This document shows, one piece after another, positions 2,501-60,488 of a stretch of DNA of 64,000 bases. Made by a program: the position numbers and the translations under genes. Below the pieces are notes generated by a model. The model made no database searches. It was not told the DNA's origin and was given only the letters and a program-made list of their open reading frames with translations. The DNA comes from an uncultured Alphaproteobacteria bacterium (GTDB taxonomy: Bacteria; Pseudomonadota; Alphaproteobacteria; Caulobacterales; Hyphomonadaceae), in NCBI GenBank assembly GCA_903842595.1, contig CAIMMO010000121.1, positions 1 to 64,000 of the forward strand. Reading direction: 5' to 3'. The first letter of the stretch is position 1. Each line of letters starts with the position of its first letter.

Positions 2501-3154
2501 ATGAAGCGGACTCTCGTATTCATGGCCTCGGCGCTTGCGCTTGGCGCGTGCGCGACTGACCCGATCACGGGGGAGTCGATCTACGGCAACACCGGCCGCG
2601 GCGCCGCTATTGGCGCTATCGTCGGCGGACTAGGCGGCGTGTTTGCGGGCGGCAATGACGGACGCAACGCCGCTGTGGGCGCAGCCGTCGGCGCACTCGC
2701 GGGCGCGGGTATCGGCCGCTACATGGACGGCCAGGAAGAAGACATGCGCCGCAAGGTGGCCTCGAGCGGCATCGGCATTCAGCGCATCGGCGACCGTATC
2801 GAACTCGTGATGCCGTCCGATGTCACCTTCGCAAAGGGTTCGGCGAACCTCGACGCTTCCTTCATGCCGACGCTCGACAAGGTTGCGGAGTCGCTCAACC
2901 TCTATCCCAGAACGACAATCGACATCATTGGACACGCTTCGACCGAAGGCGCGGAGCAGGCCAACCTCGACCTGTCCTACCGTCGCGCCGAAGCCGTGCG
3001 CGTCTACCTGCAGGGCAAGGGCGTCCTGGGTCAGCGCATGGCGACCGGCGGACTCGGCGAAAGCCAGCCGCTCGTTGTGCCGGACGACACAGAGTCCAAG
3101 CGCTCGGTTAACCGCCGCGTGCAGGTCGTCCTGCGCCCGGTCGTGGAAGGCTGA
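2501..3154 (+). CDS. OmpA-family lipoprotein with glycine-zipper domain
   Basis: 217 residues. A lipoprotein signal (MKRTLVFMASALALGAC, lipobox LGAC) is followed by a glycine-zipper segment of GAAIGAIVGGLGG-type repeats (about residues 33-70) that can insert into or lie along the membrane, and a C-terminal OmpA/MotB peptidoglycan-binding domain (about 100-215). The OmpA signature is visible as IDIIGHASTEG, LSYRRAEAVRVYL and NRRVQVVL, including the Asp/Arg positions that hold diaminopimelate. It probably tethers the outer membrane to the wall, as in Pal- or YiaD-type proteins. Shine-Dalgarno AGGAGA lies just before the ATG. A hairpin terminator follows the stop. Confidence 0.9.
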   Translation: MKRTLVFMASALALGACATDPITGESIYGNTGRGAAIGAIVGGLGGVFAGGNDGRNAAVGAAVGALAGAGIGRYMDGQEEDMRRKVASSGIGIQRIGDRIELVMPSDVTFAKGSANLDASFMPTLDKVAESLNLYPRTTIDIIGHASTEGAEQANLDLSYRRAEAVRVYLQGKGVLGQRMATGGLGESQPLVVPDDTESKRSVNRRVQVVLRPVVEG

Positions 3155-3180
3155 TTATCTCTATAGCGATAAAACTGGGA

Positions 3181-3203
3181 AGGGCGCTCGAAAGAGCGCC
3201 CTT
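3181..3203. terminator. Hairpin terminator between convergent genes
   Basis: A 9-bp perfect stem, AGGGCGCTC / GAGCGCCCT, with a GAAA tetraloop, 27 bp after the OmpA-type stop and 11 bp before the stop of the opposing SRPBCC gene. Only two T residues follow on the plus strand. The GNRA loop and position support transcription termination, possibly in both directions. Confidence 0.75.
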
Positions 3204-3213
3204 ACGTGTTGTA

Positions 3214-3729
3214 TCAATTGACAGCGACAAAGCGCATCACCTGCTCGGCCAGAACCTGGTCAACGAGCGGCGCCAGCTGGTCTAGCCCCGACAACGAGCT
3301 GCCGACCGCCTTGTAATCCAGCGTCAGCTTGGTCGTCCCCGCCGTAGCGCCATCGGCCAGCGTGAACGTTATCGCCGCGCTGACGCCAAGATCCTGCAGC
3401 GGCCCGAAAGCGCCATAGACCCGCAGCATCTGCTTCGGCATCACCAAGGCGACGCGGCCATGCTCAACTTCGCCGCCCGCCCAGACCTCGCACCAGCATC
3501 CACCCGCCCGCGCATCCAGCGACAGTGACTTCGCATCGCCCGAATAGCTATGAGAGCTACTCCACCAGCTCGCCACATCGACCAGCCGCGCCCACGCTGC
3601 ATCGCGATCCAGCGTCGCCTCCGCAACGACACGGACCGTCATGCCGTCCGGGGCCTTTGCGACCACGTCTGCATATGCCGGGCTGGATGCCACCAATGTT
3701 GCGATCGCTCTTGAAAGCAGGCGCCGCAT
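3214..3729 (-). CDS. Exported SRPBCC (START-like) family protein
   Basis: 171 residues with a short cleavable signal peptide (MRRLLSRAIATLVASSPAYA). The mature part has the polyketide-cyclase/START layout: RVVAEATLDRDAAWARLVDVASWW near the start (binding-pocket helix with a conserved Trp), a middle hairpin (GGCWCEVWAGGEVEHGRV), a strand around MLRVYGAFGPL and a long C-terminal helix (LDQLAPLVDQVLAEQVMRF). Such domains bind hydrophobic ligands; the ligand here is unknown. The ATG at 3727-3729 with GGGG upstream is preferred to an in-frame TTG 12 bp earlier. Confidence 0.75.
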   Translation of the reverse strand: MRRLLSRAIATLVASSPAYADVVAKAPDGMTVRVVAEATLDRDAAWARLVDVASWWSSSHSYSGDAKSLSLDARAGGCWCEVWAGGEVEHGRVALVMPKQMLRVYGAFGPLQDLGVSAAITFTLADGATAGTTKLTLDYKAVGSSLSGLDQLAPLVDQVLAEQVMRFVAVN

Positions 3730-17573: not shown

Positions 17574-19100
17574 ATGGCGAAGGATCACGAAAACACGTTC
17601 CAGACAGTTCTGCCGCATAACCTGCAGGCCGAAATGGCCGTTCTGGGCGCGATCCTGTTCGACAACAATGCCCAACAGCGCGTCTCCGACATCCTGAAAG
17701 CGCGTGACTTTTACGCCCCCGCCAACAGCGCAATCTTCGAAGTGCTGGACCGGCTCATCTCTGGCGGTCGCGTCGCCGATGGGGTCACGCTTCGCGAGCA
17801 TTTCGAGCGTGATGGGCGGCTGGCGGAGATCGGCGGCGCGCGATACCTGGCCGACCTGCTCGATTCCGCCGCCTTCGGACCCGAAATCGTCGACTACGCC
17901 CGCCTCGTTCACGATCTCTCGCTGCGGCGCGAACTGATCGACATTGGCGCTGGCATGGTCAACCAGGCGGTCAAGGGCGACCTCGAAGTTCCCGGCGAAG
18001 CCCAGATACAGGACGCCGAGCGCAAGCTCTTCTCGCTCGCCGAACGTGGCGCGGGCGCTCAGGGTTTCCAGACCTTCAACTCGGCATTGAGCACATCGAT
18101 CCAGACCGCCACCGCCGCATACAAGCGCGATGGCAAGATCGCCGGCGTCCCCTCCGGTCTGTCCGAACTCGACCGCAAGCTGGGTGGCCTCCACAAGTCG
18201 GATCTTGTCATCCTAGCGGCTCGTCCGTCGATGGGAAAAACCGCGCTCGCCACAAACATCGCCTACCATGCCGCCAAGATCTGCCGCCGGTCGCCGGGTC
18301 CAAATGGCACGATGAAGACGGATGAAGGCGCAGTGGTCGGATTCTTCTCGCTCGAGATGTCGTCAGACCAGCTGGCGGCGCGTGTTCTTGCCGACGTATC
18401 CGGCGTGCCGTCTGACAAGATGCGCCGTGGCGAACTCACCCCGAAGGACTACGAAGCAATCCGGGACGCGGCGGAGACAATGGAGGGCATCCCTCTTTTC
18501 ATCGACGACACAGGCGGTATCTCGATCTCCCAACTCGCCGCCCGCGCGCGCCGACTGCAGCGCACGACCGGGCTCGACCTGCTCATCATCGATTACCTCC
18601 AGCTCATCACGTCATCGGGCGGCCGCAAGAGCGACGGCCGCGTGCAGGAAGTCACCGAGATCACCAAATCGCTGAAGGCGCTGGCCAAGGAACTCGCCAT
18701 CCCGATCATCGCCCTGTCCCAACTCTCGCGCGCCGTCGAACAGCGCGAGGACAAGCGTCCACAGCTGTCGGACCTGCGCGAATCCGGCTCGATCGAGCAG
18801 GACGCAGACGTGGTGATGTTCATCTACCGCGAAGCCTACTACCTCGAACGCCTTGAGCCCGGCGAAGGTGATCCGCGCCACCAGGAATGGAAAGACCAGA
18901 TGGCCGCCAAGTTCAACGTGGCGGAGATCATACTGGCCAAGCAGCGCCACGGCCCCATCGGCCGTGTCGAAGTGGGCTTCAACCCTGCCCGCGTGCGGTT
19001 TTCGAACCTCGAGCACAGCCGTTCGGACGATCGCGCGCCGAGCCCGGTCGGGTCTGGCGGGGGCGGCGGCCGCGGCTTCCTGCCTGACGGAGAGGAATAG
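17574..19100 (+). CDS. dnaB: Replicative DNA helicase DnaB
   Basis: 508 residues, usual length. The N-terminal helical domain (LQAEMAVLGAILFDNNAQQR) is followed by the RecA-like ATPase with Walker A ARPSMGKTALA (about residues 216-226), SLEMSSDQLAARVL, Walker B LLIIDYLQLI (about 335) and the loop QREDKRPQLSDLRESGSIEQ. It unwinds DNA at the replication fork as a hexamer. No intein or insertion. The Gly-rich acidic tail (GGGGGRGFLPDGEE) is unremarkable. It is followed 40 bp later by alr, a common neighbour in this class. Confidence 0.97.
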   Translation: MAKDHENTFQTVLPHNLQAEMAVLGAILFDNNAQQRVSDILKARDFYAPANSAIFEVLDRLISGGRVADGVTLREHFERDGRLAEIGGARYLADLLDSAAFGPEIVDYARLVHDLSLRRELIDIGAGMVNQAVKGDLEVPGEAQIQDAERKLFSLAERGAGAQGFQTFNSALSTSIQTATAAYKRDGKIAGVPSGLSELDRKLGGLHKSDLVILAARPSMGKTALATNIAYHAAKICRRSPGPNGTMKTDEGAVVGFFSLEMSSDQLAARVLADVSGVPSDKMRRGELTPKDYEAIRDAAETMEGIPLFIDDTGGISISQLAARARRLQRTTGLDLLIIDYLQLITSSGGRKSDGRVQEVTEITKSLKALAKELAIPIIALSQLSRAVEQREDKRPQLSDLRESGSIEQDADVVMFIYREAYYLERLEPGEGDPRHQEWKDQMAAKFNVAEIILAKQRHGPIGRVEVGFNPARVRFSNLEHSRSDDRAPSPVGSGGGGGRGFLPDGEE

Positions 19101-58689: not shown

Positions 58690-59535
58690 ATGACCACGCT
58701 CGCTGCACACCGTCCCCGCTCAAGCCTCTTCCGACGCGCCACCGTCGCGCTCGCAGCTGCGTCAGCGCTATTCGCCTCCGCCTGTGCCAGCGTAGGGAAC
58801 ATGATGGGCGAGCCGCAGCAGCCCGCCATCGGGCTCTATGAGATGCGGATCTACACCGCCGCTCCTGGCAAGAAGGCGGAGCTCGACGCGCGCTTCCGCG
58901 ACCACACGATCGGCCTGTTCAAGAAGCATGGCATGACGCCGGTTGGTTTCTTCCACGTCTACACCGCGCCGGGCGCGCCGACCGATGACCGCCTATTCTA
59001 CATCATGGGCTACAAGGACCGCGCCACGCGTGACTCCGCCTGGTCCGCTTTCGCGCAGGATCCGGAGTGGCAGAAGGTCTATGCGGAGAGCCAGAAGGAC
59101 GGATCGCTAACGGCGCCGGGCGGCATCCAGAACATCTTCCTCAGCCCGGCGGAGTACTCGCCGAAGCTGAACCTCACGCCGTCCCCCGTGGCGCGCCATT
59201 TCGAGTATCGCACCTACACCGCCAACCCGGGCAAGCTCGAGAACATCCATGCCCGCTTCCGCGATCACACGATGCGCATATTCTCACGGATCGGCATGAC
59301 GAACTATCTCTATTGGCGCCCGGTCGCCGACCAACCGGCACAAACCGACAAGATGATGTACCTTATGGCCTACCCGACACCCGCAGCCCGCACCACGATG
59401 TGGCAGGCCTTCGGTGCCGACGAGGAGTGGAAGAAAGTCTCCGCTGAAAGCCAGGTGGACGGCCCGCTGCTAAAGAATCCGGGCGGCGTGGTCTCGGTCC
59501 AGCTGACCCCGACAGACTACTCGCCGCTCCGCTAG
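58690..59535 (+). CDS. NIPSNAP-family lipoprotein, duplicated domain
   Basis: 281 residues with a lipobox (ASACAS). Two NIPSNAP domains in tandem, one beginning YEMRIYTAAPGKKAELDARF and the other FEYRTYTANPGKLENIHARF, each with FRDHT and a DPEW/DEEW element. NIPSNAP is a ferredoxin-like dimeric alpha/beta-barrel fold seen in putative monooxygenases; no activity is proven. The tandem copies suggest a pseudo-dimer. Followed by a strong terminator. Confidence 0.9.
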   Translation: MTTLAAHRPRSSLFRRATVALAAASALFASACASVGNMMGEPQQPAIGLYEMRIYTAAPGKKAELDARFRDHTIGLFKKHGMTPVGFFHVYTAPGAPTDDRLFYIMGYKDRATRDSAWSAFAQDPEWQKVYAESQKDGSLTAPGGIQNIFLSPAEYSPKLNLTPSPVARHFEYRTYTANPGKLENIHARFRDHTMRIFSRIGMTNYLYWRPVADQPAQTDKMMYLMAYPTPAARTTMWQAFGADEEWKKVSAESQVDGPLLKNPGGVVSVQLTPTDYSPLR

Positions 59536-59557
59536 GCAAACCGCCCAAACGATCCAG

Positions 59558-59586
59558 AGCCCCCGGCCCACCGCCGGGGGCTTTTT
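59558..59586 (+). terminator. Strong intrinsic terminator after NIPSNAP
   Basis: AGCCCCCGGC / GCCGGGGGCT, a 10-bp perfect stem with a CCACC loop, followed by TTTT. It begins 23 bp after the stop. Confidence 0.95.
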
Positions 59587-59620
59587 CGCGCCCCGCGTTC
59601 AGGGTCGTTGCGACTACCCC

Positions 59621-59684
59621 TATTCCTTACGCGCATTAGGAATTCAGCCATTCCTGCGAAAGTTAGGAATTGCCCAATTCCTAA
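59621..59684. promoter_or_regulatory. Periodic ATTCCT/TTAGGAAT operator array upstream of the pirin gene
   Basis: Five half-sites alternate in orientation: ATTCCT at 59622, 59650 and 59677 and TTAGGAATT at 59636 and 59663, with same-orientation spacings of 27-28 bp. Neighbouring boxes form inverted repeats; the last (59663-59684) is perfect, TTAGGAATT-GCCC-AATTCCTAA. TTGACG, a -35-like hexamer, starts at 59691, directly after the array and about 100 bp before the pirin ATG. The AT-rich array stands out in GC-rich DNA. A cooperatively binding dimeric regulator is likely; which one is not known. Confidence 0.7.
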
Positions 59685-59789
59685 TTTCTGTTGACGTTCA
59701 CCCGGCCCAAAAACTGGTCGAAACGGGCCCTTGAGCTTCGTTGCATTTGCAACTAATTACCGCCAGCGCAGCGATTTTGGAGTTCGCAA

Positions 59790-60488
59790 ATGATCGAAGT
59801 CCGCCCTTTCTCGACCCTTGGCGGCGCCAACCATGGCTGGCTCGACGCGCACCACCACTTTTCGTTCGCGGAATACTACGACCCCAAGCGCATGAGCTGG
59901 GGCAAGCTTCGGGTCTGGAATGACGACATGATCGCACCCAAGTCCGGCTTCCCACCGCACCCGCACCGCGACATGGAGATCATCACGTACGTCCGCACGG
60001 GCGCCATCACCCACCAGGATTCAATGGGCAACAAGGGCCGCACTGCCGCGGGCGACGTTCAGGTCATGTCGGCGGGGACCGGCGTGCGCCATGCAGAGTA
60101 CAATCTCGAAGACGAGATCACCACGATCTTCCAGATCTGGATCGAGCCTGACCGTCACGGCCAGAAACCGAGCTGGGGGGCGAGGCAGTTCCCGAAATCG
60201 AATCGCACCGGCGCCTGGTCCATTCTTGCGTCCGGCAAGGGCGATGAAGGCGCGCTTGGCATTCAGGCCGACGCTCGTGTCGCAGGCGTGACGCTTGAGG
60301 CAGGCCAGGAAATCGCCTGGGAAACAACGCCGGAACGACATGTCTACGCCGTGGCCGCGACCGGCGCGATCGAGGTTGAAGGCAATCACGCCGCGGCTCG
60401 CGATGGCGTGGCGGTCACCGGTTCGACCCGTATCGTCTTCCGTGCGGTCGAGGGGCCCGCCGAGATCGTGCTCACCGATACGCTTTGA
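59790..60488 (+). CDS. Pirin family protein (YhhW-like)
   Basis: 232 residues, bicupin. The metal ligands are visible: His59, His61 in FPPHPHRDMEIITYV, and His103/Glu105 in MSAGTGVRHAEYN. Bacterial pirins have quercetinase activity or act as redox-responsive partners. The ATG at 59790 is preceded by only a weak Shine-Dalgarno, and a palindrome TTGCATTTGCAA lies at 59741-59752. Probably regulated through the 59621-59684 array. Confidence 0.93.
   Translation: MIEVRPFSTLGGANHGWLDAHHHFSFAEYYDPKRMSWGKLRVWNDDMIAPKSGFPPHPHRDMEIITYVRTGAITHQDSMGNKGRTAAGDVQVMSAGTGVRHAEYNLEDEITTIFQIWIEPDRHGQKPSWGARQFPKSNRTGAWSILASGKGDEGALGIQADARVAGVTLEAGQEIAWETTPERHVYAVAATGAIEVEGNHAAARDGVAVTGSTRIVFRAVEGPAEIVLTDTL

Follow-up and report, generated by a model that had tools for sequence, protein, structure and literature searches.

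What is a regular array of inverted half-sites doing in front of a pirin gene, and does it belong to that gene at all? In the window, by which we mean the whole 64,000-nucleotide stretch of alphaproteobacterial DNA that was analysed, the array occupies positions 59622..59684 and consists of five half-sites in alternating orientation, with ATTCCT starting at 59622, 59650 and 59677 (spacing 28 and 27 bp) and AGGAAT at 59638 and 59665 (spacing 27 bp). These half-sites pair into three dyads: an imperfect one, ATTCCT..AGGAAT (59622..59643; 18 of 22 letters symmetric); TTAGGAAT-N6-ATTCCTGC (59636..59657), whose core AGGAAT-N6-ATTCCT is exact although the exact 22-mer is symmetric at 12 of 22 letters; and the perfect 9-4-9 repeat TTAGGAATT-GCCC-AATTCCTAA (59663..59684; 20 of 22 letters symmetric). 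Six base pairs separate the end of the array from a TTGACG hexamer at 59691-59696. An earlier note on this DNA had described the five alternating half-sites, their same-orientation spacing of 27 or 28 bp, the perfect last repeat and the distance to the hexamer, and all of this was borne out.

The array stands out from its surroundings. The pattern AGGAAT-N6-ATTCCT, with at most one mismatch, occurs twice in the window, both times inside the array, and 100 dinucleotide shuffles of the window yielded a mean of 0.03 and a maximum of 1 match. In a free scan for any alternating array of four half-sites, ours scored 20, the runner-up in the window scored 18, and the maxima of five shuffles were 17-18. 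R1, a two-dyad covariance model built from 12 rows out of 9 genomes, the window array being one of these rows, matched the window at 59636-59684 with an E value of 4.6e-14.

The flanking genes are both read on the forward strand: a NIPSNAP-family gene upstream (58690..59535; Pfam PF07978, E 5.2e-29) and a pirin-family gene downstream (59790..60488; PF02678, E 6.8e-36, and PF17954). Between the NIPSNAP gene and the array, we read two fully complementary 10-nt arms followed by a T run (59558..59586, forward strand) as a terminator-like hairpin. The pirin leader has a palindrome of its own, GTTGCATTTGCAAC (59740..59753), lying within the 17-bp spacer of what we read as a possible promoter, TTGAGC-17-TAATTA (59731..59759, forward strand); a consensus scan of 59500-59800 called neither a promoter nor a terminator. 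The leader palindrome, in the form of GTTGCATTTGCAAC, GTTGCATATGCAAC or GTTGCGTTTGCAAC (variants of one to two letters), is found 50-54 bp before the ATG in 10 of the 11 close pirin leaders, whether or not these also have the array, and is absent from the 260 bp read in the leader of genome G008. This palindrome, which to us resembles a MarR-type site, is likely an operator for some regulator and a better candidate for the pirin operator than the array.

We compared the upstream regions of pirin orthologues, as the earlier note had proposed. The search covered 61 genomes, and 11 genomes of the genus had a close pirin gene with a readable leader. The array precedes pirin in five of these 11: the window's own genome (G000), G001, G004, G007, where it has three dyads, and G013, where it is degenerate, with one exact hexamer in 260 bp. 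The G013 copy scores 19 in the free four-half-site scan and its own shuffles score 18-19, so geometry alone is no proof of it. The other six close leaders (G003, G005, G008, G009, G010 and G011) have no array; G002 and G014 contain only more distant pirins (63%), also without it, the pirin gene of G012 is split across contig ends, and G006 has no close one. Against the refuting condition set in the earlier note, the outcome is mixed: of the ten relatives, four have the boxes (in degenerate form in G013) and six have none, and the own genome has no second occurrence.

A motif search of the 15 genomes of the genus located the array at a second place in G003, G006, G009, G010 and G011: between the converging 3' ends of lpd, whose product is a pyridine nucleotide-disulphide oxidoreductase by Pfam and which we take to be dihydrolipoamide dehydrogenase, and of a gene for an AMP-binding enzyme, presumably acyl-ACP synthetase-like. 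Four of these five genomes have a readable pirin leader, and in all four the array is missing there. The array was absent from this gap at the other 11 lpd loci read. In G011 the gap is split between contigs C7 and C94, which share a 246-bp overlap (99.6%), and a tRNA-like sequence stands between lpd and the array.

Searched with R1 among 105 genomes of the family, the array appears as exactly one locus in each of 10 of the 15 genus genomes; no locus was found in G012 (77% complete), G005 (90%), or G002, G008 and G014 (99% each). Among 398 genomes of the order, R1 matched nine at E <= 0.001, all of them from this genus; G006 (best E 8.6e-5 in the family search) is missing from that set, being either not drawn or lost to stricter filters. 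The assembly to which the window belongs, 91% complete with 4.24 Mb spread over 277 contigs, contains neither the N6 palindrome outside the array nor the N7 palindrome, at up to three mismatches.

Several fainter resemblances turned up in wider searches. Two weak R1 matches outside the genus (G019, E 0.033; G028, E 0.041) were set aside as chance. So were hits of a 15-base pattern in eight of the 105 family genomes, all outside the genus, which occurred on one strand only and hence have no fourth half-site; among these eight, only G019 also had a weak R1 match, at another position. A strict pattern of three half-sites retrieved seven stretches from a wider contig collection, four of them assigned to G001, G004, G007 and G011, and we took the three from Bacteroidota, Ruminococcus and Mycoplasmataceae as chance. 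The N6 palindrome with two mismatches, sought in 150 genomes, also matched once each in G075, G097, G099, G107, G124 and G148, and an identical 22-mer, TTAGGAATTGCCGAATTCGGAA, occurs once each in G097, G107, G099 and G075, from another genus of the family. A genus-wide search for the N7 form gave scattered single dyads at 2-3 mismatches, about as many as its backward control, which we likewise attribute to chance. Two single dyads from the 15-genome motif search were set aside: one in G012 (contig C592), inside an MFS-type gene, and one in G008 (contig C6; 1501-1521 of the locus read), TAGGAAT-N7..8-ATTCCTA, situated between the end of a Cas9-type nuclease gene fragment (HNH_4, RuvC_III) and cas1 in a genome without the array. 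In the literature searched, the box strings were found in no paper and no such element came up.

Where the array is present, its boxes are kept and its spacers drift. Between G000 and its closest relative, G001, both with the array before pirin, none of the 36 box positions differ, compared with 5 of the 27 in spacers and 25 of the 192 in flanks (box versus spacer, Fisher p = 0.011, in a post hoc test). In alignment A2, identity is 0.90 for boxes and 0.39 for spacers, the box value being inflated by rows that were retrieved using the motif. The alternating geometry is retained in relatives, and the number of dyads varies among genomes.

Could the array still be an operator or upstream activating site of pirin for an oligomeric regulator, perhaps after one clade captured an older array? 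The conserved boxes at the pirin place would fit, as would the distance from the array to the start of pirin, which is kept at about 105 bp or more in all five genomes of one clade. Against this, five other genomes carry the array between converging gene ends, six of ten close relatives dispense with it before pirin, the leader keeps its own palindrome either way, and the own genome lacks a second site. We therefore consider an operator role in this clade doubtful, and reject pirin control as the general function in view of the copies in the lpd gap and the four array-free pirin leaders of those genomes. The regulon that the earlier note had expected from repeats of the box at other promoters was not found, as the own genome offers no second occurrence.

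The history of the two places was deduced from a tree of pirin and lpd, in which the five genomes with the array at pirin form one clade (support 76) and those with the array at lpd are paraphyletic (supports of the joining branches 51-81). This topology suggests that the lpd place is probably the older one and that the array probably arose once at pirin. The tree is built from these two genes only and places G002 and G014 outside G020 and G023, so that gene histories may be mixed. G005 branches within the lpd group, yet has no array.

The genome of G000 has a rearrangement breakpoint at the old lpd/synthetase gap. G001 has, after lpd and at the place taken by the array in other genomes, a TIR-domain gene (PF13676, E 3.6e-18; 2934-3689 of the locus read), and the G000 copy of this gene shows, by eye, an in-frame stop. 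The gap contains tRNA-Lys and tRNA-Cys genes in G005 (18073-18235 of the locus read) and, in G011, a called tRNA-Asn (anticodon gtt; 166-239 of the locus read) together with an uncalled tRNA-Cys-like stretch. These extra tRNAs seem to be decaying, and the gap seems to collect insertions.

Such a gap invites the idea that the array is a functionless repeat, minisatellite-like or derived from an inserted palindrome, that drops into quiet gaps and decays. The insertions and the breakpoint just described, the variable number of dyads and the absence of the array from five of the 15 genus genomes are compatible with it. A functionless repeat would hardly keep its boxes while its spacers drift, nor would it be expected at one locus, never several, in each of ten genomes, and we regard this explanation as unlikely.

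Another thought is that the array controls an unannotated transcript, for instance a small RNA or an antisense RNA, that moves with it. An operator array can persist without an adjacent protein gene, and both the lpd gap and the pirin leader could host a small RNA. The five lpd-gap sequences, however, align poorly outside the boxes (column identity averages 56% across the full alignment), and every Rfam match within 59400-59900 stayed below the gathering score of its family, the best being Sr006 with 35.5 bits against 100 (E 4.3e-4, 59519-59636) and mir-7910 with 24.8 against 83; a travelling transcript thus appears quite improbable. RNA hairpins, whether of the REP/BIME type or stems stabilising 3' ends, can be dismissed almost entirely, because, although each dyad can form a stem of 8-9 bp with a short loop, 1 of 192 alignment cells changed on both sides (which 43 of 500 shuffles equalled), the stems lose their eighth base pair in 2 and 4 of the 12 rows, each genome has one locus, and the array at pirin comes after the terminator-like hairpin and before the likely promoter.

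Conserved boxes, drifting spacers and nearly absent covariation together indicate protein-DNA sites, and a protein reading the boxes would explain the conservation better than an RNA hairpin. Cooperative binding by an oligomer, the first half of what the earlier note had proposed, hence stays the best class of explanation, with boxes and geometry kept and RNA pairing explaining neither; control of pirin as a general function, its second half, does not stand.

If pirin is not the common denominator, the chromosomal position may be, since both places of the array are near dif, the site that marks the replication terminus. An E. coli-type dif pattern gave no match in the window. The dif-like site used here, TCGCATAAT-CAAC-ATTATGGGCAAT, was single in 16 of 17 genomes searched, with none in G006 (73% complete); in the accessible part of a published list, it resembles the dif given for Agrobacterium and is unlike the putative one of Caulobacter crescentus (PMC2731167). 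On contig C2 of G013, the dif-like 28-mer (188075-188102) coincides with a flip in the polarity of the KOPS-type motif GGGNAGGG, and the same contig carries lpd, at 227 kb, and the array, which at 341 kb is 153 kb away from dif. The KOPS polarity also flips at the dif-like site in G000 (contig C138, 31359-31383), G008 (contig C7) and G023, with small counts per bin. The GC skew of G013 has no clean flip at dif, since it turns negative over 200-260 kb and returns to positive values over 260-340 kb.

In all ten genomes with both features on one contig, lpd lies 15-41 kb from the dif-like site. In the genomes with the array at lpd, dif is on another contig, and adjacency was judged by synteny with G013, which would place the array at about 29-34 kb from dif in G010 and at 33 kb and 30 kb in G009 and G011, respectively. 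As for the own genome, contig C138 carries dif at 31 kb and its match to G013 breaks off at 301 kb, while that of the window sets in at 303 kb in the same direction; should both contigs adjoin, the array would be some 134 kb from dif. In the complete genome G023, which has no array, lpd is found at 749 kb and dif at 765 kb; pirin, at 580 kb, is 184 kb away from dif, and dnaA is at 2,397 kb. By our arithmetic, a random place in 4.2 Mb has a chance of about 7% of falling within 153 kb of dif and of about 2% of falling within 34 kb. The suggested link to the terminus is drawn post hoc from two places. A scan for comparable arrays, whatever their sequence, around dif in G023 (over 400 kb) and G008 (over 240 kb) gave none that exceeded shuffles.

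The terminus region has undergone extensive rearrangement. In G013, the ends of a block at 169-217 kb (169.6 and 217 kb) are joined in G000, G005, G008, G009 and G010, indicating that the block is inverted in G013 relative to these genomes.

We propose that the array, single in copy and relocatable, is a place in the terminus region where a putative protein docks, with a chromosomal, terminus-linked role, and give this reading a probability of roughly 0.4. The array would be a cis-acting chromosomal site for a sequence-specific DNA-binding protein, with each TTAGGAAT/ATTCCTAA dyad receiving one dimer, and two or three dyads at a pitch of 27-29 bp allowing cooperative loading into one compact nucleoprotein patch. 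In the array-bearing clade there would be one such patch per chromosome, in transcriptionally quiet DNA of the terminus region, either after a terminator-like hairpin and ahead of the following promoter or in a gap towards which two genes converge, probably at lpd first and at pirin later. Its most likely job would be to mark or anchor the terminus region for segregation or division, rather than to control pirin. A bolder and, in our opinion, rather doubtful version sees the array as a genus-specific 'centromere' of the terminus, a relocatable dyad cluster by which the putative protein marks the terminus in alphaproteobacteria without MatP, one copy being kept by selection within about 150 kb of dif and at no particular gene.

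The docking-site reading matters because terminus marking in bacteria without MatP is largely an open question. A single, motif-defined terminus array would be a concrete bait for its putative protein and would allow testing whether the terminus is held through it. More generally, what appears to be the operator of a gene can turn out to be a chromosomal site that just happens to be its neighbour.

Among known systems, the multi-operator arrays that transcription factors and phage repressors bind also have dyads at regular pitch, with cooperative loading such as we propose here. The present array differs in that it also lies between converging gene ends and has no regulated gene common to both places; in addition, the strict three-half-site pattern had no matches in viral contigs, and we rejected a phage operator. 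The parS sites of ParABS systems are also palindromes clustered in one chromosomal region, but their sequence differs from that of the array, which is near dif and, judging from G023, not near dnaA. With dif itself the array shares the terminus and a single copy per chromosome, but sequence and place differ; dif is an Xer site of 28 bp in which two 11-bp arms flank a 6-bp centre, unlike the array, and a separate dif-like 28-mer is present.

The MatP-matS system of enteric bacteria, as described in the accessible part of the source, also relies on palindromic sites confined to the terminus region, although the matS 13-mer is scattered over 800 kb and the array is one compact locus (PMC7188993). 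The MatP model PF06303 found no member in the 15 genus genomes at E <= 0.001, and found MatP in the E. coli control. With no match to MatP, one locus per genome and an own genome free of other such palindromes at up to three mismatches, we do not assign the array to this system. Caulobacter crescentus presumably belongs to the same order-level neighbourhood as the array-bearing genomes. Its ZapT, a terminus-binding protein of the MerR family, links the terminus to the Z-ring and, according to the accessible part of that account, has 10 ChIP sites that lie mostly inside reading frames, are biased to the terminus region and yielded no consensus motif (PMC7188993). ZapT sites and the array, as far as that part of the account goes, have terminus-region DNA in common, and the array differs in being one intergenic locus with a clear motif; as ZapT has no motif to compare, we do not assign the array to it either. 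In all, we see the array as a probable case of clustered dyads for a DNA-binding protein.
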